A DNA stretch of 64,000 nt from Acidimicrobiia bacterium (lineage in GTDB: Bacteria; Actinomycetota; Acidimicrobiia; Spongiisociales; ZC4RG35): contig JANQRA010000018.1 in assembly GCA_028284765.1 (NCBI GenBank), positions 124,001-188,000 on the forward strand. The letters run 5' to 3'. The notes below the pieces were generated by a model. That model had not been told where the DNA came from and did no database searches. It worked only from the letters and a program-made list of their open reading frames with translations. Position numbers and translations under genes: made by a program. This document shows, one piece after another, positions 22,074-32,282 of the stretch. The stretch's first letter is position 1; every line of letters starts with the position of its first letter.

Positions 22074-23027
22074 TCAGCTTCCACACACTTCGAACTCGTT
22101 CACAAGGGGACCGTGACCTGCGGCTACTGCCCGCTCTCTGAATTCGACCAGGCCCGGGAACTGTTCGAACCATTGGATCCGCTCCCGTTGCTCGGTGTTG
22201 GACGCCTCGACTTGGAGGACGTAGGCAGAGAACGATTCGGCAAAGTCTTCCTCCGGGTGGCTAGCCGCATACGGGCCCAGGAAGCCGGGATCCAGGTCGC
22301 ATCGCTCTTCCCCGTCTGCCACCGATGGCGAGATGTCGGGGTCGATGTCGTCGATGTACTCAGTCCAGAAGTCCTGGATCCACATGTAGACAAGAGAGTC
22401 GTCATAGAAACAGCCATCCCCGTTGTAGAAGGTGTCGCAGTCGGCCGCATCAGCTAGCCGATCTATCTGGATGACCGTGCCGGAGAAGACGTGGGCGAAC
22501 TCATGGACAAGAGTCAGCTTGGTGGTTGATTCGTCGGTCTCTTCCTGATCGAGGTTGATCGACATCTGAAACTCACTGCCTTCGTCGTCGAAAGGGGCCA
22601 CGAAGGCGAGGGTTGTCTCATCTCCGGTCTCCAGGGATTCAAACCCGGAGAAGACCGCGAGATCCCAGAGCTGGCCTGGTGGGACGATGTCGGCGAGGAT
22701 TTCCCAGGCGTCGAGAATCAGCTCAGACTCAGTGCCGAGGCAGAGACCGCCGAGGTTCCCTTCAACGACCTGGTGGGCGACCAGGGATTGCACGATCTCG
22801 TCGTCTCCGAGATCCTCAGGCGTACATGAAACATCTTGGCGACCGAGGGAAAGGTCGATAGCGCCACCGCGGATCGCTTCCGCTGTTGTCGTCGTCTCAT
22901 TTGGTGGGTCTGAAGTCGTCGTATCTGATCCCGGATTCGGGGTGTCTGGCTCATCGACTGCCATGGCACAGCCGACTAGAAAGAGCGCTGTCAAGGCGAC
23001 CCCCGCCAGCTTCAAGGCGAGTCCCAA
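22074..23027 (-). CDS. Lipoprotein with HExxH metallopeptidase motif
   Basis: A 317 aa secreted lipoprotein: signal peptide with lipobox LVGC (Cys20), a Thr/Ser/Pro-rich linker (25-50), then a globular domain. VHEFAHVFSG holds HEFAH at residues 175-179, and HPEEDFAESFSAYVL further on supplies a likely third zinc ligand (Glu264), an arrangement seen in gluzincin peptidases. Several Cys pairs suggest disulfides. I cannot name the family. The start lies within the last codons of the membrane hydrolase gene (16-nt overlap), so the two are one operon. Confidence 0.72.
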   Translation of the reverse strand: MGLALKLAGVALTALFLVGCAMAVDEPDTPNPGSDTTTSDPPNETTTTAEAIRGGAIDLSLGRQDVSCTPEDLGDDEIVQSLVAHQVVEGNLGGLCLGTESELILDAWEILADIVPPGQLWDLAVFSGFESLETGDETTLAFVAPFDDEGSEFQMSINLDQEETDESTTKLTLVHEFAHVFSGTVIQIDRLADAADCDTFYNGDGCFYDDSLVYMWIQDFWTEYIDDIDPDISPSVADGEERCDLDPGFLGPYAASHPEEDFAESFSAYVLQVEASNTEQRERIQWFEQFPGLVEFRERAVAAGHGPLVNEFEVCGS

Positions 23028-24991
23028 CAGCTCTCCAGCGCATCAGTCGGAGGCTTGGACAGCCCTTGTTTCCTGGAGGCACAGAACTCCGGAGTCAGCT
23101 CGTACCGGCTGTGACCGGTTCCCGTCTCCACCAACCAGTTGCGGTCCCCGATGTGAGCGATCACCTGCCCTCCGATCGGGTCTGTGGAGCGCCAGAGATT
23201 GACCCAACTTCCGTCGAGACTGGTCAATGTCTCGGTAACCAGGTCGCCAAAACCCACGCTTGGGAACAAAGCGGGATAGAGGTCACCCAGCTGGGATCCG
23301 TACGACACAAATCTCTGTGGCACATCGTCGGCTCCAATCTGGCTGATTGCCAGGGCAGATATCAGCGAACCCTGTGAATGTGCGGAGAGGACATCTGGCC
23401 GATCTGCCTCCAGTTGTTCACGAAGACTGTCCACAGCATTCGGGCCGTACTCCGGGGGAGCGAGCGGATGGAACCACCGTGGCCAGAACGAGCCCAGATC
23501 CCAGATGATGCCTACCTTCCGCCGCGCATCCTGACCGTTGAGGAGACCACCAACGATCGAGCGGAGAATCAGGAACGCAGGCACCGCAATCATCAGAAGC
23601 TTCGCCCACCCGACCACTGAGCCTGGGTCGAACGGCAGCCCGAGAAGCTCGACTTGGGCCTCTGTCGACTCCTGCATCCATTCTGGAAGTACCAGATTCG
23701 ACTGCGAGCAAGTACCGCCGCGGCAGCTCACCAGCGCAGCGATTCCGCCGACGACGAGTCCGTAAACGCCGGCTGCCCCGATAGTCACTCGAGACCTCAA
23801 CACGCCCCTGCGCAACGCGCTCTCCTCTCGACGCCGCCCTTTGACGACCATCGTGATGACAAACGTGATCGCCATGGCAGCAACCAGTCCGAGCATCCCT
23901 ACGGTGACGAAGCCGGCTCCGCCCGTGAGTAGAGCTTGCCCTTCGCCGGCACCAGGCAGGTACGTGCCGGCCAGCATCGCGGCGGTGAGGCCGTAGGTCG
24001 CCCCGAGGAGCGTTGCCACTGTGAGCAAACCGAGAGGTACCAGTCCACCCCGACCACGGGTGGCGGCTAGCTCGCCGATCACAGCCAATACGGCTGAAAC
24101 GATCAGTACCAATGCGAGCTGGAATGTCAGATCGTCGGAGACATTGTTTGCGCCCGGGGCCAGCGATTGAAGCTCGACGAGGACCCATATGAGAGTCGCA
24201 AGGGAGAGCAAAGGCAGCAGGGCTGTCGCCCAAATCACGGCTGTCCACTTGGCCATCGGGCCCGCGGTGAGACCAAGCATGATCAGAGAGAGACCGGCGG
24301 TCGTCATCGCAGCCAATTCGAGATCTGAGTTCTCCAGGGTTCGAGCAGCGACGGTGGCGAGGACCGCAGTTCCGAAGGCGACGTGAATCTTTCTGAGCCG
24401 ATGAGGCATGGACTGTTCCGACCACATCTCATTCCCGGTGAGCGAGGAGTCCTCAGCCGGGTCGCTCCAGTCGTTCTCGGGGTTTGAGCTCATCGACGGT
24501 GGGCTCGGCTGATATACCGACCGGAGCCGATCCCACAATCCGCTTGACCCGTTGCTGGTCCTGGTCGTGAGGATCACCAGTCCTCCGATCAGAGCTGCAC
24601 AAAACGCAACGTAGACGGCGTGGACGAGCGAAGGATCAATTCCAATTTCCAACAGGACGTCGAGGGACACGTTGGCCGCCTGCGCAAAGAAGATCGCGGT
24701 CAGAGCGAGGCCTGACACCCGAATCCAGATCCTCGACCAAACGTTGGGTTTCTCGGTCATCCACCCGGCGACGTTCGCCATGGCAAACGGAGCGAGAAGT
24801 ATCCAGAACGACGTGAGGATGTTTCGTGAGGTGAGGCTGCCCCAGTGGTATGCCCGCACATCCCATATGTCCCGGTTTGTCTCGTAGACCTTTGCCAGAT
24901 CAGCTGTCTGGTCGTAAGAGACAGGATCGGTGTACAGCAACTGGGATGGTGGCGTGCCGGATACGCCGTGGACTCGCAGTTCGGTTGGCAT
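23012..24991 (-). CDS. Large membrane protein with split alpha/beta-hydrolase features
   Basis: A 659 aa protein. The soluble N-terminus reads RVHGVSGTPP, resembling the HG oxyanion strand of lipases. About ten to eleven hydrophobic helices follow (residues 58-480). The soluble C-terminus has VLSAHSQGSLISALA with candidate nucleophile Ser539, TDPIGG near 602 and GTGHSRYE near 627 for the remaining triad. This looks like a lipase fold interrupted by a membrane domain, as in some actinobacterial integral-membrane proteins of unknown substrate. Divergent from the NYN gene, with only 37 nt between. Confidence 0.68.
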   Translation of the reverse strand: MPTELRVHGVSGTPPSQLLYTDPVSYDQTADLAKVYETNRDIWDVRAYHWGSLTSRNILTSFWILLAPFAMANVAGWMTEKPNVWSRIWIRVSGLALTAIFFAQAANVSLDVLLEIGIDPSLVHAVYVAFCAALIGGLVILTTRTSNGSSGLWDRLRSVYQPSPPSMSSNPENDWSDPAEDSSLTGNEMWSEQSMPHRLRKIHVAFGTAVLATVAARTLENSDLELAAMTTAGLSLIMLGLTAGPMAKWTAVIWATALLPLLSLATLIWVLVELQSLAPGANNVSDDLTFQLALVLIVSAVLAVIGELAATRGRGGLVPLGLLTVATLLGATYGLTAAMLAGTYLPGAGEGQALLTGGAGFVTVGMLGLVAAMAITFVITMVVKGRRREESALRRGVLRSRVTIGAAGVYGLVVGGIAALVSCRGGTCSQSNLVLPEWMQESTEAQVELLGLPFDPGSVVGWAKLLMIAVPAFLILRSIVGGLLNGQDARRKVGIIWDLGSFWPRWFHPLAPPEYGPNAVDSLREQLEADRPDVLSAHSQGSLISALAISQIGADDVPQRFVSYGSQLGDLYPALFPSVGFGDLVTETLTSLDGSWVNLWRSTDPIGGQVIAHIGDRNWLVETGTGHSRYELTPEFCASRKQGLSKPPTDALESCWDSP

Positions 24992-25028
24992 GAGGCCCCC
25001 TTGGTGATCCCCAAGCTACATTCGGCAC

Positions 25029-26024
25029 ATGGAAGAAGAACGAATAGCTCTATTCGTCGACTTCGAGAATCTCGCAATAGGTGCACGTGAGGCCCTGGGA
25101 GGGATGGAGTTCGACTTCGAGCCAATCGCCAATGCGCTGGCTGAGCGGGGGAGGGTTGTGTCACGTCGCGCATACGCCGATTGGTCGATGTTTGATGATT
25201 CACGACAGAGGCTGACCCGCAGCCACGTCGAGCTGATCGAGATCCCCCAGCGCATGGGTGCCACACGGAAGAACGCAGCCGACATCAAAATGGCCGTCGA
25301 TGCCATCGAGCAGGCCTACGAGCGAGATTACATCACCACTTTTGTGATCTGCACCGGCGACTCGGACTTCACCCCTCTCGTCCACAAATTGCGTGAGCTG
25401 AACAAGAAAGTGATCGGTGTCGGGGTCAAAGCGTCGACCTCCAACTTGCTCCCACCGGCATGTGATGAGTTCCTGTTCTACGACAATCTTGCCGGCGTCG
25501 ACGCCCGCAGTCAGGAAGCACAGAGCTCAAACGGCAACGACGAACAGCCCGAGTTGGAGTCCATCATCACCACAACACTCGGCGGGCTTCTCCGTTCAGG
25601 ACAAGCCGAAGTACTCGCCTCGGGTCTCAAGAGAGCGATCCTTCGCAAGGATCCCACTTTCTCCGAAGCGGACTTCGGTTTCAGAGCGTTCGGTGAACTT
25701 CTTCGGCACCTCGAGTCCGACGGTCTCATTGAGCTGTCTGAGGGTCCGGGCCGGGGAGATCCGCTGGTCCAATTCTCTGCTTCCGGGACGAGTGAGCAGG
25801 GTGCGTTCGAACTCCTCAGGTCTGTCGTAACAGACCTCTCCAACAATGGTCCGGTTGTCCTGTCGGGACTCAAGAATCAGATGAGGAAAGTCCAACCCGA
25901 CTTCAGCGAGAAGAAGTTCGGCTACGGCGGATTCCTCCAGTTCTGCCGTGCTGCCGCGACACGGGATGTCATCGACCTCGAGTTCGACGAGAACGCCGGC
26001 GACTACATAGTCACACCGGCATGA
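25029..26024 (+). CDS. NYN domain nuclease-like protein with two OST-HTH/LOTUS domains
   Basis: The N-terminal NYN (PIN-like) domain shows LFVDFENLA (Asp11), ADIKMAVDA (Asp85) and CTGDSDFTPLV (Asp111, Asp113), the acidic residues expected to bind metal for RNA cleavage. Two winged-helix OST-HTH/LOTUS domains follow: residues 175-250 (LLRSGQAEVLASGLKRAI, DFGFRAFGELLRHLE) and 255-331 (VLSGLKNQMRKVQPDFSEKKFGYGGFLQFCRA). Such proteins (LabA/MARF1 relatives) bind and probably cut RNA. It overlaps the FAD oxidoreductase gene by 4 nt. ATG 25029 is the only suitable start. Confidence 0.9.
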   Translation: MEEERIALFVDFENLAIGAREALGGMEFDFEPIANALAERGRVVSRRAYADWSMFDDSRQRLTRSHVELIEIPQRMGATRKNAADIKMAVDAIEQAYERDYITTFVICTGDSDFTPLVHKLRELNKKVIGVGVKASTSNLLPPACDEFLFYDNLAGVDARSQEAQSSNGNDEQPELESIITTTLGGLLRSGQAEVLASGLKRAILRKDPTFSEADFGFRAFGELLRHLESDGLIELSEGPGRGDPLVQFSASGTSEQGAFELLRSVVTDLSNNGPVVLSGLKNQMRKVQPDFSEKKFGYGGFLQFCRAAATRDVIDLEFDENAGDYIVTPA

Positions 26025-27256
26025 GCCAGACCGCTGAGGTCATCGTCGTTGGCGGTGGAATCATCGGCTCAGCTATTGCTTATCAGTTGGCTCGAAGGGG
26101 AGTCGACGTGCAGGTGCTGGACAAGGGCCTTGGTCCGGCAGAAGGCTCAACGGGGGCTTCTTCTTCGATCTGCCGCTGCCGGTACACACATCCCGAAGTC
26201 GTTCGGCTGGCCTATCACGGGCGGGAGTCGTACGGGAATTGGCAGGACTACACCGGGCTGTCGGAAGTGCGCACCGGCCTTACCCGCACCGGGGTGCTGT
26301 GGATCATGGGGGAGAGCAAGCAGAAAGTTGAAGTTGACGTCTCGAAGCTGCGGGCTCAGGGCGTTGAGGCTGAAGCTCTCGTGCCTTCGGATCTCGAAGA
26401 CATGTTCCCTGCGGTTTCTGCTTGCGCTGCTCCGTTTGATCTGACCGGCGAAGTCACCCACGAATGTGAGCCGGGAGAGGCGTTCCTCTACGAGGTAGAG
26501 AGCGGCTACGTGGATCCATCGAGCGCCAACCAGGACCTTCTCGACGCCACGCGAGCGGCTGGGGGCAGCATCACGTTCGACGCAAGAGTGACCGAGGTGG
26601 TGACAAGCCGCGAGACAGTGACGGGCGTGCGTACCGCTACCGGGGTGGAGCACAGCGCTTCGCTGGTGATCAATGCCGCAGGCCCCTGGTGCAACCAGCT
26701 GAACGCTATGGCCGGTGTGGAGCACAGATGGACACTCACGCCGACTCGCATCCAGACCGTCTATCGCCCATGGCCCGCGGATCTGGGATCACTCCCCACG
26801 GCTGCAGACGGCGTGACCGGGATCTACTTCCGGCCAGAGTCAGGGGGTCAGTCCCTCCTGGTGGGATCGGTCATCGCTGAAGATGAAGAAGAGGTCGTGA
26901 GCGATCCCGACAGCTACAAGCGGACTCCTGACGCCGAGTTCTTGGAAATGAAGATGGCGATGTTCCACCATCGGATCCCAAGTCTCGAACCTCGTGGTGA
27001 CCTCTCCGGAATCGCAGGGCTGTACACGATCAACCGGGAGGACGTACATCCGATCTTGGGTCCGGTCGGTGTGGATGGGTTCTGGGTAGCCAACGGATTC
27101 AGCGGTCACGGATTCAAGCTGGCACCGGCGATCGGTTCGATGATCGCCCAGCACTACACAGGCGAGTCCATCGACGGTGACACCGATGTGCCCATGTCAT
27201 TCTTCGCAGCTGATCGGGAACCCATAGATGTCGAAGCCATGAGTGTCCTCGCCTGA
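26021..27256 (+). CDS. FAD-dependent amine/amino-acid oxidoreductase (DAO family)
   Basis: A 411 aa flavoprotein of the D-amino-acid/sarcosine oxidase family. The Rossmann FAD motif is VIVVGGGIIGSAIAYQLARRG with Asp/Lys of VLDKG following, then GSTGASSSICRCRY, the second FAD-binding VINAAGPWCNQL, and C-terminal GPVGVDGFWVANGFSGHGFKLAPAIG, which closes the flavin site. The likely reaction is oxidation of a secondary amine or amino acid; the substrate is open. It is coupled to the next gene (TGATG), an ornithine cyclodeaminase homolog, which points to amino-acid or opine-like catabolism. Confidence 0.88.
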   Translation: MSQTAEVIVVGGGIIGSAIAYQLARRGVDVQVLDKGLGPAEGSTGASSSICRCRYTHPEVVRLAYHGRESYGNWQDYTGLSEVRTGLTRTGVLWIMGESKQKVEVDVSKLRAQGVEAEALVPSDLEDMFPAVSACAAPFDLTGEVTHECEPGEAFLYEVESGYVDPSSANQDLLDATRAAGGSITFDARVTEVVTSRETVTGVRTATGVEHSASLVINAAGPWCNQLNAMAGVEHRWTLTPTRIQTVYRPWPADLGSLPTAADGVTGIYFRPESGGQSLLVGSVIAEDEEEVVSDPDSYKRTPDAEFLEMKMAMFHHRIPSLEPRGDLSGIAGLYTINREDVHPILGPVGVDGFWVANGFSGHGFKLAPAIGSMIAQHYTGESIDGDTDVPMSFFAADREPIDVEAMSVLA

Positions 27257-28125
27257 TGATCTTTCTCGACGCCGAAGCAACGCGAGAGTGTCTACCGATG
27301 CCGGATGCGATAGAAGCAATGGTCCATGCATTTACCGGCGACGCTGAAGCCCCATTGCGATCGCTGGTGGGACCATCGCTAGTGATGCCAGGTCGGCTTG
27401 ATGACGAGATGGCAGTGAAAGTCGTATCGATCGTTCCAGGCAACCCCGTTGGGTTGGTGATCGTGTTCGGGGACGACGGATCGCCGATTGGAATCGTCGA
27501 CGGCCCCACTGTCACCGCCATTCGAACCGGTGCCGTGGCTGGGATGGCGACCAGGGTTCTAGCCCCGGAAGGCAACGCCACGTTGGCCATGTTGGGTGCA
27601 GGGGCGATGGCTTTCGACCAGATCGAGGCCATTCGTGCAGTGAGGCCGCTTGATCGGATTCTCGTGTGGTCACGGACGATCGAGAACGCAGCCAAGATCG
27701 CAGATCGGGTCGGAGGTGAGCCGATCGCAGATGCGGACCAGGCAGTTGCCGAGGCATCGATCGTGTCTTGTGCGACGCCTGCCACGGTGCCCCTTTTCTC
27801 TGACGACTCGGTCGGTCCTGGAACACACATCAATGCTGTCGGCGCCTTCACTCCGGAGATGGCTGAGCTCAACTCGGAGACCTTGGAACGCGCCTATGTC
27901 GTGGTGGACGATGTCGAAGCGGCTGAAGCCGAGGCAGGTGACCTCATCCAGGCAGACCGCGCCCCAAACACGACACTTCGAGCGCTGCTCGAGGGAACTG
28001 CTCCACAGGTCGGCGAGGACGTCACCGTCTTCAAGAGCGTCGGGGTTGCTGCTCAGGATGTTGCCGCTGCGTCGGTGGCGCTGGCCAATGCGGCGCGACA
28101 AGGTCGAGGCGTCAGGCTGACTTAG
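27256..28125 (+). CDS. Ornithine cyclodeaminase/mu-crystallin family protein
   Basis: A 289 aa NAD(P)-binding enzyme. MAVKVVSIVPGN holds the family's substrate Lys, DGPTVTAIRTGAVAGMATRVL the Arg/Thr site, LAMLGAGAMAFDQIEAI the dinucleotide loop (Gly rich, with Ala in place of one Gly), and HINAVGAFTPEMAEL the C-terminal substrate segment. Family members deaminate ornithine to proline, reduce ketimines, or make/cleave related imino acids. It is somewhat short (usual 310-330 aa). Start overlaps the oxidoreductase stop by 1 nt; its end overlaps the convergent DUF2277 gene by 14 nt. Confidence 0.88.
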   Translation: MIFLDAEATRECLPMPDAIEAMVHAFTGDAEAPLRSLVGPSLVMPGRLDDEMAVKVVSIVPGNPVGLVIVFGDDGSPIGIVDGPTVTAIRTGAVAGMATRVLAPEGNATLAMLGAGAMAFDQIEAIRAVRPLDRILVWSRTIENAAKIADRVGGEPIADADQAVAEASIVSCATPATVPLFSDDSVGPGTHINAVGAFTPEMAELNSETLERAYVVVDDVEAAEAEAGDLIQADRAPNTTLRALLEGTAPQVGEDVTVFKSVGVAAQDVAAASVALANAARQGRGVRLT

Positions 28126-28327
28126 CCCCTCTGATCTCCAGTCCGTCGAGAAGTCGTTGGGATGCCGCTGCGATGTCAGCGACTGCGCTGTCAAAGACCT
28201 CCTCGTTGTGTGCAGCTGGCTTCGTGAACCCCGAGATCTTTCTCACGAACTGGCGAGCTGCAGCCTCAATGTCTTCGTCTGGAGCTGGCGTCGCTCCATC
28301 TCTGAGTCTCTTGATCGATCGGCACAT
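28112..28327 (-). CDS. DUF2277 family protein
   Basis: A 71 aa protein starting MCRSIKRLRDGATPAPDEDI and containing AARQFVRKISGFTKPAAHNEEVFDSAV, the full DUF2277 pattern. The function is unknown. It lies 10 nt downstream of the membrane-protein gene on the same strand and overlaps the 3' end of the cyclodeaminase-like gene. Confidence 0.88.
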   Translation of the reverse strand: MCRSIKRLRDGATPAPDEDIEAAARQFVRKISGFTKPAAHNEEVFDSAVADIAAASQRLLDGLEIRGAKSA

Positions 28328-28337
28328 GTGTCGGAAT

Positions 28338-29153
28338 CTAGGCCCTGGCGCCTGGATCCAACTCGTTGGATACGACCACCAACCCCAGTGTCAAGACAAG
28401 CGGCGCAACGGATGAGAGGCTGAGTCCGGCGGCCGCCGTCACGGCCACTGAGGCGATTGCGACCGTCGCACGTCCCAGATGGAGCTGCCGCTGGTCCAGG
28501 GTCGCACCGTGGCGGGCATCGACGATGGATGTCGGTGCGACCGGCCCCCTCAAGACCAGGATCAATCCCAGGCCTCCAACCAACGCAAGCGCGGCTGGGT
28601 CGATGTCCCACGGAGCGGTCGGGAGGCCGTCAGCAGCGGTTAACACGACTGTTGCTGCGATTGCAGCGATCGCCGGGATGACGAGTCGCCATCGAGCTTG
28701 GTCATCTTGTCTGGCTCCATCGATTGCCATAGCGACCGCGAGAGTGAAACCGCCGATCCAGCCTGAGACGGTGTAGCTGATCGCAATCGCACCGATTCCG
28801 ACGACAACCCAGTCCGACAACAGGGAACGTCGACCGGTGGTTCCCACCACGATTCGAGCCCCGACCATCAGGGCACCCACGGCCAGAAGACTCAAGCCAG
28901 GACCGTCCACCAGAGTCCAGAGGGCTCCGACCGGACCGGCGACCATGGCGGTCCACGGGTGGTCTGGGTCGATCTCACGAGCCAGGGCCCAATAGAGCAG
29001 TGCCGCTCCGGGGGCCACCCAGAGACCCGAATCGCCTCCGTTGAGGATGATGATGACGGCCGCGATTCCGGACAGGGCGATGGCAACGATTGCAACGACA
29101 TTCGAGGGAACTGTGACGTCAAAATCTCGAGCCAGATGTGAGCGAAAGCGCAT
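28338..29153 (-). CDS. Polytopic membrane protein, unknown function
   Basis: A 271 aa product with seven to nine hydrophobic stretches (VVAIVAIALSGIAAVIIIL, GLWVAPGAALLYWALA, LLSDWVVVGIGAIAISYTVSGWIGGFTLAVAMAI, VIPAIAAIAATVVL and others), no recognised motif. The frame extends to 29528 over the start of the ClC gene, but that part is not protein-like; ATG 29153 (MRFRSHLARD) is preferred, with ATG 29174 as an alternative. Divergent from the ClC gene, 33 nt apart, so they may share control. Confidence 0.65.
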   Translation of the reverse strand: MRFRSHLARDFDVTVPSNVVAIVAIALSGIAAVIIILNGGDSGLWVAPGAALLYWALAREIDPDHPWTAMVAGPVGALWTLVDGPGLSLLAVGALMVGARIVVGTTGRRSLLSDWVVVGIGAIAISYTVSGWIGGFTLAVAMAIDGARQDDQARWRLVIPAIAAIAATVVLTAADGLPTAPWDIDPAALALVGGLGLILVLRGPVAPTSIVDARHGATLDQRQLHLGRATVAIASVAVTAAAGLSLSSVAPLVLTLGLVVVSNELDPGARA

Positions 29154-29186
29154 AACGCTCGGATTGTGGCGCATACCCTCCGGTTG

Positions 29187-31295
29187 ATGACAAATCCGCT
29201 GACCGGCATCAAGAAGATCCCCGCTGTTGGTGCCCTTGCCGAACGGCAGATGGGCGGGTTCCTCGCTTTGAGTGCTCTGGTCGGCGTCGGGGTTGGAGTC
29301 GGCGCTGCAGTTCTCGTTGTGTCTCTCGAGGCCGTTTCTCATCTGATGGAAGGACTCCTCGTCGTTGAGGATGAAGACGGCCTCTTCACACTGCAGAGGG
29401 CGTGGATCTTCTTGACGGTCCCGATCGGTCTTCTGGCTGCATGGTGGATCGCGAAGAGGTTCGCTCCTGAGGTTGCGGGGGATGGGGTTCCCGCCGCTAC
29501 CGAGGCTCTGATGGTCAGAGGTGGTCACATCCGTGGGCGTGTCGCCCCACTGAAGGTGCTTGCGACTTCGCTGACCGTGGGCTCCGGAGGTTCAGCAGGT
29601 CGAGAAGGCCCGATCGTTCAGATAGGCGCCGCAATCGGGTCGTGGCTCTCGCGTCGCTTCAACATGGGTGAGGATCAGGTCCGATCCCTAGTCGCAGCCG
29701 GTGCCGGTGCGGGAATTGGTGCTTCGTTCAACGCTCCGATCGCCGGGATGCTCTTCGCGCTCGAAGTGATCCTTGTCTCCTTCGCTCCAAGACACATGTC
29801 AGCGATCGTCATCGCATCGGTGACTGCGGCGATCACCTCTCAAACACTCGTGGGTGAAGAGTTGGCTTTGAGCGCCGGTGCGTATGACCTCAACTCGTTC
29901 AGCGAGCTGATTCCATACACCGGCTTGACGATCGTCGTCGTCGCTGTCGGGTTCTTCTTCCTGAAACTCTTGGACTTGGTGGAAGGTTTCGCCCACACTC
30001 GCGCGGCACGTCTCTCTTGGATCCGACCAGTCGGTGCGGGGTTGATCGTCGCAGGCCTCATATATGTGGAACCTGCGGTATTCGGGACCGGTCAGAGAGT
30101 GACGAACTCGCTGCTGCTCGACGAGCAGGTGGCTGCGATAACGGGTATCGGCGGGGAGCTTTGGTGGGTATTGATACTTCTCGCGCTGGCCAAGGCGGTC
30201 GCCACGTCGTTCACGATTGGTTCTGGTGCCTCTGGTGGCGCATTCATGCCCTCGCTTTTCATGGGGGCTGCGGTGGGAGCCGGGTTTGCCCGATTGGTAG
30301 GGGAGTTCTGGACGGGTTCCACTCCGCTCGATACGGGCGCCTTCGCCGTCGTCGGCATGGCGGCCATGTTCGCGGTGGTGGGGCGTGCCCCCCTCACGGC
30401 GATTCTCATTGTCTTCGAGGTGACTGGGGCGAGGGACTACGGGCTGATCCTGCCTCTGATGCTCACTGCCACGGTCGGAACGTTCCTCGCCGAGAGGTTC
30501 ATGAAGGACTCGGTTTACACCATGGCCCTCAAGAGGAAAGGGATCCGGCTCACTCGCACCGCGGAAGTGGACATTCTCGACACGGTGACGGTTGGCTCGG
30601 TCATGGTCGAGCCGCCATTCGTGGCGGCTCCCGGTCTTCTAGTGGACGACGCGGAGGCTCAGCTCAGAAGGACGAGAGCCCACGGTGTCCCGGTTTTGGA
30701 GGATGGGGAACTGGTTGGAATCGTCACGGTCTCTGACCTGCGGCGAACCAGTGAGGCCGAATTCGTGGGAGATGTCATGACCAGGCGCCCGGTGACTGTG
30801 ACTCCCGACACACCCGTTTCAACTGCCCTGGAGAGGATGGCCGCGTTGGGGGTAGGTCGCCTACCTGTCGTCGACGATCACAATCCAAAGGTGCTCGTTG
30901 GCTTCTTCCGTCGGGAGGAAGCTGTGCACGCCTATCACGAAGCGCTGACGACGACCACGGATCACCATCTTCACCGTCTCCGATTAGCTCAGCGCACTCA
31001 GCCCGGTGCGGGCTACTACGACTTCAGGATTCCGGTCGGCTCTATTGCAGACAGCAAGAGGGTCCGAGAAGTCGCCTGGCCCGAAGGCTCGACGTTGGTA
31101 TCGGTTAGGAGGGGACGCGACGTCCTGGTGCCGTCCGGCAGCACAACTCTGCAGCCTGAAGATGTCGTTACCGCCTTCGGCACAGCTACCTCCCGGCAAA
31201 GGATGATCGACAGACTCAATGCGGGAGCAGACGAGCCCACCGCTGAGATTCAGCTTCCCGATGACCTTGGCGAGGACACCGCCGAGGTCGAATAG
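29187..31295 (+). CDS. ClC chloride channel/transporter with CBS pair and TrkA_C domain
   Basis: A membrane chloride pathway of about 702 aa. The ClC core shows GDGVPAATEAL (usual Cl-binding GSGIP region, with Asp at the Ser position), GSGGSAGREGPIVQIGA with the gating Glu (about nt 29605), FNAPIAGMLFALEV where the intracellular proton Glu is Val, and GSGASGGAFMPSLFMG. SVYTMAL keeps the central Tyr. Two CBS domains follow (VMVEPPFVAAPG and VMTRRPVTVTPDT), then a TrkA_C/RCK-C ligand domain (EVAWPEGSTLVSVRRG). Start ATG 29187 is preferred to the in-frame GTG 29166. Confidence 0.92.
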   Translation: MTNPLTGIKKIPAVGALAERQMGGFLALSALVGVGVGVGAAVLVVSLEAVSHLMEGLLVVEDEDGLFTLQRAWIFLTVPIGLLAAWWIAKRFAPEVAGDGVPAATEALMVRGGHIRGRVAPLKVLATSLTVGSGGSAGREGPIVQIGAAIGSWLSRRFNMGEDQVRSLVAAGAGAGIGASFNAPIAGMLFALEVILVSFAPRHMSAIVIASVTAAITSQTLVGEELALSAGAYDLNSFSELIPYTGLTIVVVAVGFFFLKLLDLVEGFAHTRAARLSWIRPVGAGLIVAGLIYVEPAVFGTGQRVTNSLLLDEQVAAITGIGGELWWVLILLALAKAVATSFTIGSGASGGAFMPSLFMGAAVGAGFARLVGEFWTGSTPLDTGAFAVVGMAAMFAVVGRAPLTAILIVFEVTGARDYGLILPLMLTATVGTFLAERFMKDSVYTMALKRKGIRLTRTAEVDILDTVTVGSVMVEPPFVAAPGLLVDDAEAQLRRTRAHGVPVLEDGELVGIVTVSDLRRTSEAEFVGDVMTRRPVTVTPDTPVSTALERMAALGVGRLPVVDDHNPKVLVGFFRREEAVHAYHEALTTTTDHHLHRLRLAQRTQPGAGYYDFRIPVGSIADSKRVREVAWPEGSTLVSVRRGRDVLVPSGSTTLQPEDVVTAFGTATSRQRMIDRLNAGADEPTAEIQLPDDLGEDTAEVE

Positions 31296-31328: not shown

Positions 31329-32282
31329 GTGGAAATCTTCATTGGCGTCGTAGCGGCAGCCGTCGTCATCTATTTGCTCTACAACATGTTCAGAAACCGC
31401 AAGAAGCGGATGGAAGATGCAGCCAAGAGTTCAGACTCCGCCGCTGCAACCGGGCTCTCCGTGAGCAAGGACCTCTTCGAAGCCGAGTTGGGTCATCATC
31501 CGCCACTCGAGAGCTTCCACGTGGTGGGCAACGAAGCGAGGGTGACTTTCGACGTGCCGCTTCAGGACGAAGAGGACAGTGTTCTAAACGATCTGTTGGT
31601 CGGTGAGGGCGTGGAGGTCGTGCGGCAGAAGAGACATGAGCTTCCGATCAGTGACATCGAAGAGATCGTGGTCTTTGCAGGTCGCGGCCAGAGTCGTGAG
31701 GTCGGGCGGACCAAGCTCGCCTCCCCGGGGGAACTGCCCCCGCCAGCACTCGCTGAAGGCATGAGTATCGCTGCCGTTGCTCACGATCCTTTCGCAGCGC
31801 CCTTTGACGACGACGACGACCGTCCACCGCCCGCCGTCAGCGACTTCGATCCGTCAAGTGATGAGTTGGGTCCGATCCGCGATGAGCTCAACTTCCCCAT
31901 GGGGCTTGAGCGTGGGCTGCGCGCCACCGGCACTGATCCCGCATCTCTCAATGGGCCGGAGTTGGTCGTGGCGTTGCTCAAGATGTTCGGGTACCGCGTC
32001 ACCGAGCAGTCGTATGAGGGCACCTACATGGCGACCAAAGATGGCATCAGCACATACATCGCCACTGAGGCTCATACCGAAAGCTCCCATCCCGAGCTGA
32101 GTGAAGGCGCCATCCAGAGGTTCGTTGCGGCTTTCGGCTCATCTGGCGCAGACCGGGGAATGATGATCACCGACAAGTACGGGCCGTTCAAGATCTACGA
32201 GATCGAGCGAAATCAGCCCAAGGTCCGCTTCGTCACACGGGAGCGCCTGCAGAGATTCATCGACTCGATGGCCCTCGGATAA
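31329..32282 (+). CDS. Membrane-anchored protein with restriction-endonuclease-like C-terminus
   Basis: Not a named family. The 317 aa product has one N-terminal helix (residues 1-22, IGVVAAAVVIYLLYNMF), a basic stretch (FRNRKKR), a middle region with acidic linker (about 155-180, DDDDD-like), and a C-terminal domain from residue 195: GPELVVALLKMFGYRVTEQS, TKDGISTYIATEAH, GAIQRFVAAFGSSGADRGMMITDKYGPFKIYEIER. This order of helix, short strands and a gvviT-like strand resembles Mrr-type endonuclease folds, but the catalytic D-ExK is not clear. GTG 31329 follows an AAGGA box, 33 nt after the ClC gene. Confidence 0.6.
   Translation: MEIFIGVVAAAVVIYLLYNMFRNRKKRMEDAAKSSDSAAATGLSVSKDLFEAELGHHPPLESFHVVGNEARVTFDVPLQDEEDSVLNDLLVGEGVEVVRQKRHELPISDIEEIVVFAGRGQSREVGRTKLASPGELPPPALAEGMSIAAVAHDPFAAPFDDDDDRPPPAVSDFDPSSDELGPIRDELNFPMGLERGLRATGTDPASLNGPELVVALLKMFGYRVTEQSYEGTYMATKDGISTYIATEAHTESSHPELSEGAIQRFVAAFGSSGADRGMMITDKYGPFKIYEIERNQPKVRFVTRERLQRFIDSMALG

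Follow-up and report, generated by a model that had tools for sequence, protein, structure and literature searches.

In a stretch of 64,000 nucleotides from Acidimicrobiia bacterium (assembly GCA_028284765.1, contig JANQRA010000018.1, positions 124,001 to 188,000; in the following called the window), three genes lie one behind the other on the forward strand. They encode a predicted NYN nuclease with LOTUS-type domains, a flavoprotein of the DAO family and a reductase of the OCD/mu-crystallin family. It is likely that they form an ordinary operon, which originated once in a single family of bacteria, and that the predicted RNase stands alone and has no specific control over the two metabolic genes. 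A first-pass annotation of this DNA had proposed RNA-level control of the pathway or, as a fallback, simply a convenient operon. The fallback fits best; for RNA-level control we found no positive evidence, in an analysis that included no search for RNA elements, and the linkage is bound to one lineage. It is real, yet for this reason unfit for inferring RNA control of amino-acid catabolism. What the analysis offers instead is an assignment of the OCD gene that is testable, though weak as yet. It also draws attention to an RNase-like protein of actinobacteria that is strongly conserved and whose gene has a conserved start of the leaderless type.

According to the proposed scheme, the NYN gene, coding for an actinobacterial RNase predicted to act on its own, would be transcribed from a -10 box at its start codon as a leaderless mRNA. 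The DAO and OCD genes, a pair that is found together elsewhere too, would have come to lie behind it in the ancestor of the family. All three genes would be read on one transcript, and the stop-start overlaps may couple their translation. By oxidation, the DAO enzyme would turn a D- or N-substituted amino acid into the imine, and the OCD enzyme would reduce a cyclic ketimine, presumably delta1-pyrroline-2-carboxylate, to L-proline. The RNase would exert no specific control on either gene.

Linkage of the genes in related genomes

The main survey covered 99 genomes. The window's family contributed 34, among them the window's own genome, and the remaining 65 came from other families of the order. 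The genes were regarded as linked if DAO and/or OCD was located within 2 kb of the NYN gene. Orthologue-grade genes were counted in 65 (NYN), 41 (DAO) and 42 genomes (OCD), after genomes with weak matches had been dropped by hand: 12 of 77 for NYN (only 27-31% identity), 2 of 43 for DAO (32%) and 22 of 64 for OCD (43% or less). In the window's family, 18 of the 22 genomes with NYN show the linkage, 14 with NYN adjacent to DAO and 4 with NYN directly followed by OCD. Genome G012 was counted as unlinked, its NYN and DAO/OCD genes being 6,240 bp apart on the same strand. G007 and G021 have kept NYN, DAO and OCD, each on a separate contig, and G015 has NYN and no orthologue-grade DAO or OCD. In G001, NYN and DAO share a contig and the OCD match is on a different one. 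Among the other families, none of the 43 genomes with NYN is linked within 2 kb, though 26 of them carry DAO and/or OCD. The survey of related actinobacteria proposed earlier thus found the linkage inside the family and nowhere among these 43 genomes. Where NYN and the pair share a contig outside the family, they are 8.2 kb (G043) and 12.4 kb (G036) apart, both on opposite strands, and in the single-contig genome G053 NYN and DAO/OCD are hundreds of kb apart. One locus outside the family (L102 of G068) has a DAO-family match of 32% identity convergent with NYN, which was not counted as linkage.

A second collection consisted of the best 80 of 452 loci found, the closest NYN relatives. Any DAO/OCD match was present in 14 of the 80 loci and absent from 66, three of which (L007, L026, L040) fall within the linked clade. 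Another 28 loci sampled across the phylum gave no DAO/OCD match (0/28), with flanks that reach about 1.5 kb at most and some loci stopping at contig ends. The Micromonospora loci of these collections showed no linkage. In a midpoint-rooted tree of 60 NYN proteins, 16 linked rows and one split row fall into one 19-row group (support 98/97); its remaining two rows, L026 and L040, are unlinked. The branch of L017 and L019, outside the other 17 rows, has the full NYN-DAO-OCD order, which argues for a single origin followed by losses. The four NYN-OCD rows lie scattered over the tree (4 changes). Judged from these sequences, the linkage probably arose once, in the ancestor of the window's family, and was then lost in some members.

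The pair also occurs without NYN. In families f3 and f4, all 8 genomes holding both DAO and OCD have them side by side on one strand, and NYN is absent from the 2 kb around them. In f2, 2 of the 4 genomes with both genes have them as divergent neighbours. DAO and OCD therefore often belong together without NYN; in f8, they are apart in 6 of 6 genomes holding both. Local gene order is also generally conserved: in 17 loci of the window's family, OCD lies downstream of NYN in 14, a chloride-channel gene in 13 and DAO in 11. In both loci that lack DAO/OCD, NYN is followed by the channel gene. Of the four loci without the channel gene, three break off within 3.5 kb of NYN, and the fourth contains an inserted transporter. 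Because of this general conservation, the NYN-DAO-OCD linkage needs no special function.

The NYN-LOTUS protein

The NYN protein is a predicted RNase, as judged from its sequence. Five aspartates, D11, D85, D91, D111 and D113, are shared by all 35 aligned NYN proteins (the window's and 34 of 80 relatives). We take these residues to be the metal site of the nuclease pocket. The AlphaFold model of the protein has a mean predicted local distance difference test score (pLDDT) of 81.8 and a predicted template-modelling score of 0.48. In this model, the NYN domain is near 2qip (Z 21.8) and the NYN domains of MARF1 (Z 19.7, 18.6), and both C-terminal domains (residues 174-249 and 256-330) are predicted to have the order helix-helix-helix-helix-two-strand.

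The two LOTUS domains claimed at first sight differ in how well they could be recovered. The C-terminal copy is matched by Pfam OST-HTH in a single stretch at residues 261-322 (1.1e-9, 38.4 bits against a cut-off of 23.8). Structurally, residues 252-331 resemble the LOTUS domain of TDRD7 (Z 11.0, root-mean-square deviation 1.9, 75 residues), and the C-terminal winged helix resembles that of Oskar (Z 8.2 over 70 residues). The first copy has no Pfam match and was recognised by motif and model only. Its structural matches (about residues 170-252), which comprise origin-recognition proteins and 3bz6, carry no LOTUS label, and this is compatible with a LOTUS identity. Both winged-helix domains contain the motif SGLK(7 residues)P.FSE..FG(F/Y)..F without gaps, at 198-221 and 279-302, and a tandem LOTUS-type pair is therefore likely, though Pfam sees the second copy only.

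The gene is widespread. Of 197 class-sampled genomes, 75 have an NYN match at E 1e-30 or better, as have 57 of 198 phylum-sampled ones. In 17 of the latter 57, the match is confined to residues 2-264 (37-53% identity), so that the second LOTUS domain may be missing there. The window's genome has one NYN-family match. When the open reading frames (ORFs) of the 80 closest loci were clustered, no family besides NYN occurred in more than 16 loci. Recurrent neighbour families were seen in Micromonospora-type NYN loci. In G005 (C4:128516-129509), the NYN orthologue matches as two abutting pieces, perhaps through a frameshift or an assembly error. Our literature search found no experimental study of a bacterial NYN-LOTUS member.

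Transcription and translation signals

The box TACATT, located 6 nt before the ATG of the NYN gene, would be the -10 box of a leaderless-type promoter. A TANNNT box at a spacer of 6-7 is present in 18 of 20 distinct upstream sequences of the family, compared with a mean of 0.28 in shuffled sequences that preserve single-base content only. Among other distinct upstream sequences, a set that still contains four rows of the window's family (L098, L099, L103, L104), it is present in 67 of 99 (shuffle mean 0.78). Starts were placed by homology and the nearest in-frame start codon. The box is frequent in some lineages (Micromonosporaceae 31/33) and rare in others (f46 1/7, f80 0/6, f68 0/5, f76 0/2), and when rows are grouped by genus or record, 57 of 82 units carry it in half of their rows or more. 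The control starts are few and partly mid-operon; among them the box was counted as follows (OCD 2/30, DAO 3/12, WS 0/10, up659 0/6, CLC 0/1, d317 0/1). Such signals before the start are described as marking leaderless genes, on average 19.2% of actinobacterial genes (PMC3160421). The NYN gene is thus probably transcribed as a leaderless mRNA from this box.

As already noted in the first-pass annotation, the three genes overlap. NYN and DAO share 4 nt (ATGA), and DAO and OCD share 1 nt within TGATG. The 4-nt overlap recurs in 10 of 13 family rows with a visible DAO start; in the remaining 3, the DAO start can be placed by alignment only. The DAO start in the window has no Shine-Dalgarno 4-mer upstream, and 7 of the 8 DAO starts listed, the window's included, have no Shine-Dalgarno word upstream, which fits coupled translation.

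Features of the operon and its surroundings (positions of the window; aa, amino acids)
Feature	Position	Strand	Remarks
Divergent ORF	23012-24991	-	659 aa; no Pfam match; start 37 bp from the NYN gene
TACATT, probable -10 box	25017-25022	+	6 nt before NYN ATG; leaderless-type promoter
NYN nuclease-like gene	25029-26024	+	331 aa; two C-terminal winged-helix (LOTUS-type) domains
NYN domain	25041-25481	+	residues 5-151; Pfam 1.3e-34, 120.2 bits (cut-off 24.2)
First winged-helix domain	25548-25775	+	residues 174-249; LOTUS-like by repeated motif and model; no Pfam match
Second winged-helix domain, OST-HTH/LOTUS	25794-26018	+	residues 256-330; Pfam, model and fold match
ATGA overlap, NYN stop/DAO start	26021-26024	+	4 nt common; from the sequence
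DAO-family FAD oxidoreductase gene	26021-27256	+	411 aa
OCD/mu-crystallin-family reductase gene	27256-28125	+	289 aa
ORF downstream of the OCD gene	28338-29528	opposite to operon	convergent
Protein after the chloride-channel gene	31329-32282	+	317 aa; no Pfam match over cut-off

Relatives of the 659-aa ORF occupy the same place in 9 of 17 family loci, and counterparts of the 317-aa protein are found downstream in several relatives.

Likely substrates of the DAO and OCD enzymes

The identities first given to both enzymes hold at the level of Pfam, over curated cut-offs (DAO 1.9e-54; OCD_Mu_crystall 5.7e-46, 157.4 bits against 24). Both are superfamily names only, and no NCBIfam cut-off was reached by DAO (best 25 of 63 models) or OCD (15 of 15 models). 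The best solved relative of DAO is 1y56_B (1.3e-26; next 6e-16), followed by entries for dimethylglycine dehydrogenase and glycine oxidase. We take 1y56_B, listed as sarcosine oxidase, to be the beta subunit of the L-proline dehydrogenase of Pyrococcus horikoshii. The NCBIfam models for N-methyltryptophan oxidase, amino oxidase and glycine oxidase score 113.7, 91.8 and 78 bits on DAO, all below cut-off. The predicted structure of DAO was poor (mean pLDDT 56.8) and was left out of the fold searches.

The best solved relatives of OCD are mu-crystallin entries and a delta1-pyrroline-2-carboxylate reductase. The curated equivalog cut-offs were missed (PRK06141 187.3 against 322 bits; LhpI 115.9 against 400), and the enzyme can therefore only be graded as one that probably works like these. 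It is probably a ketimine reductase of the delta1-pyrroline-2-carboxylate type. Its most likely substrate would be delta1-pyrroline-2-carboxylate, reduced to L-proline, and it may also serve a hydroxyproline dehydratase; we give this assignment about an even chance. Ornithine cyclodeaminase proper has its catalytic Asp in the cyclodeaminase loop; the protein here reads NAVGAFTPEMAE in its loop. It is the single OCD-family match in its genome, which has eight strong DAO-family matches, the window's included. No paper joining DAO, OCD and pyrroline-2-carboxylate reductase was found in our literature search. In G012, branched-chain amino-acid ABC transporter genes sit between NYN and DAO-OCD (L152:2688-8729), in line with amino-acid use.

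Possible suppliers of the ketimine in the genome are the adjacent DAO and a proline-racemase-superfamily gene located on another contig than the operon. The protein encoded by the latter contains MCGHG and DRSPTGTG, motifs which we assume to hold the two catalytic-site positions. Its best NCBIfam model scores 339 bits against a cut-off of 540. The pattern of hydroxyproline dehydratase is described as a single Cys with the other position Thr-substituted (PMC4113996). Both motifs fit this pattern, so the protein is likely a hydroxyproline dehydratase. The product of this enzyme is described as leading to the ketimine of proline, and a member of the OCD or the MLD2 (Ldh_2) superfamily then carries out the reduction of this ketimine. 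The racemase superfamily was counted after 6 of 55 genomes with weak matches had been dropped by hand; two of these six, G007 and G021, are just over the cut-off. In f8, the superfamily is present in 8 of 8 genomes with OCD and in 1 of 5 others (that one 76% complete). Of the 21 genomes with OCD in the window's family, 15 have it. The support that this comparison across genomes gives to the proline assignment is weak.

Weighing of the explanations

Several observations weigh against an ordinary operon with a proline-forming OCD. A retention in 18 of 22 genomes is high for an accidental neighbour, and four family genomes without a DAO orthologue still have OCD abutting NYN. DAO (41/41) and OCD (41/42) occur almost always in genomes holding NYN, though along family lines. 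The genomes are drafts, and contig breaks may conceal linkage. A promoter scan of 24800-28800 found no sigma-70 consensus. The window's genome has one gene of the Ldh_2 family, the other superfamily with such reductases; its best models are malate, sulfolactate and ureidoglycolate dehydrogenases, all under cut-off. Outside f1 and f8, the racemase superfamily is present in 0 of 13 genomes with OCD, and in f6, 12 of 13 genomes have it without this OCD. Overall, the two are not associated (23 of 42 genomes with OCD, 26 of 57 without). OCD must therefore have other suppliers too, of which DAO is the obvious one.

The strong retention within the family could also mean that selection keeps the trio together for shared expression timing, for instance when cells starve or cease to grow, and that the products do not interact at the molecular level. 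The leaderless-type box in 18 of 20 family upstream sequences agrees with this, as does the reported rise of leaderless mRNAs in starvation-induced arrest of Mycobacterium tuberculosis (PMC3898074). However, the downstream chloride-channel gene is about equally syntenic, and the -10 box, being present outside the family too, did not arise with the linkage. We regard shared timing as unlikely, though it is the strongest competitor of the ordinary operon.

RNA-level control, in which the NYN-LOTUS RNase would bind and cut its own polycistronic mRNA or other mRNAs of the pathway, appears quite improbable. The overlapping genes are likely on the same transcript, OCD stays beside NYN where DAO is missing, and the NYN domain of MARF1 is described as an endoribonuclease (PMC6294520). 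Against this, NYN has no linked DAO/OCD in the 43 genomes of other families, and more widely, and the pair stands without NYN within 2 kb in the 8 genomes of two families (in two of them NYN is at the 8.2 and 12.4 kb mentioned above, on the opposite strand). G007 and G021 keep all three genes, on different contigs. A broader version, with the RNase expressed in growth arrest from its widely conserved leaderless promoter and, in this family, a proline-type amino-acid salvage brought by the shared transcript under its possibly autogenous RNA-level control, is slightly less probable still.

Of the opine or imino-acid pathways named at first, the amino- or imino-acid part holds and opines are not favoured. 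The DAO superfamily is described as including catalytic subunits of opine dehydrogenases, and an OCD gene is present in an octopine catabolic operon (PMC4575208). The operon studied here, to which this search was confined, holds NYN, DAO and OCD only and no genes for alpha or gamma subunits; no ABC transporter is among the nine window proteins scanned; DAO is closest to 1y56_B among solved structures and OCD to ketimine reductases. An opine-catabolic pair is thus very improbable. That DAO is an RNA-modifying enzyme like MnmC, which would explain the adjoining RNase, can practically be dismissed, since the MnmC models (42.9 and 53 bits) are outscored by the three oxidase models given above, none of which is over its cut-off either, and the partner OCD belongs to a metabolic family.

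Comparison with known systems

On the metabolic side, OCD shares the Pfam family of delta1-pyrroline-2-carboxylate reductase, and the genome has a racemase-superfamily protein with Cys and Thr. It differs in that the dehydratase-like gene is on another contig and in its score on PRK06141. DAO resembles 1y56_B, its best solved relative, and differs in that the operon includes no gene for an alpha subunit next to it.

The NYN protein is similar to MARF1/Limkain b1 in the NYN fold and a LOTUS-type domain. MARF1 is, however, described with eight LOTUS domains and two RNA-recognition motifs (PMC6294520), compared with two LOTUS-type domains in 331 aa here. The closest known proteins are bacterial fusions of an LK-nuclease (NYN/DUF88) with OST-HTH, described as enzymes of RNA degradation that possibly stand alone, since their genes have no conserved neighbourhood links with other systems of RNA processing (Anantharaman, Zhang and Aravind 2010, PMC2848206). 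In them, too, one or two OST-HTH domains come after a nuclease domain at the N terminus. In contrast, the gene analysed here leads a metabolic operon in one family, a setting of which the accessible part of that paper makes no mention that we could find. The kind of protein is already known, and here a further member stands in a lineage-specific setting.

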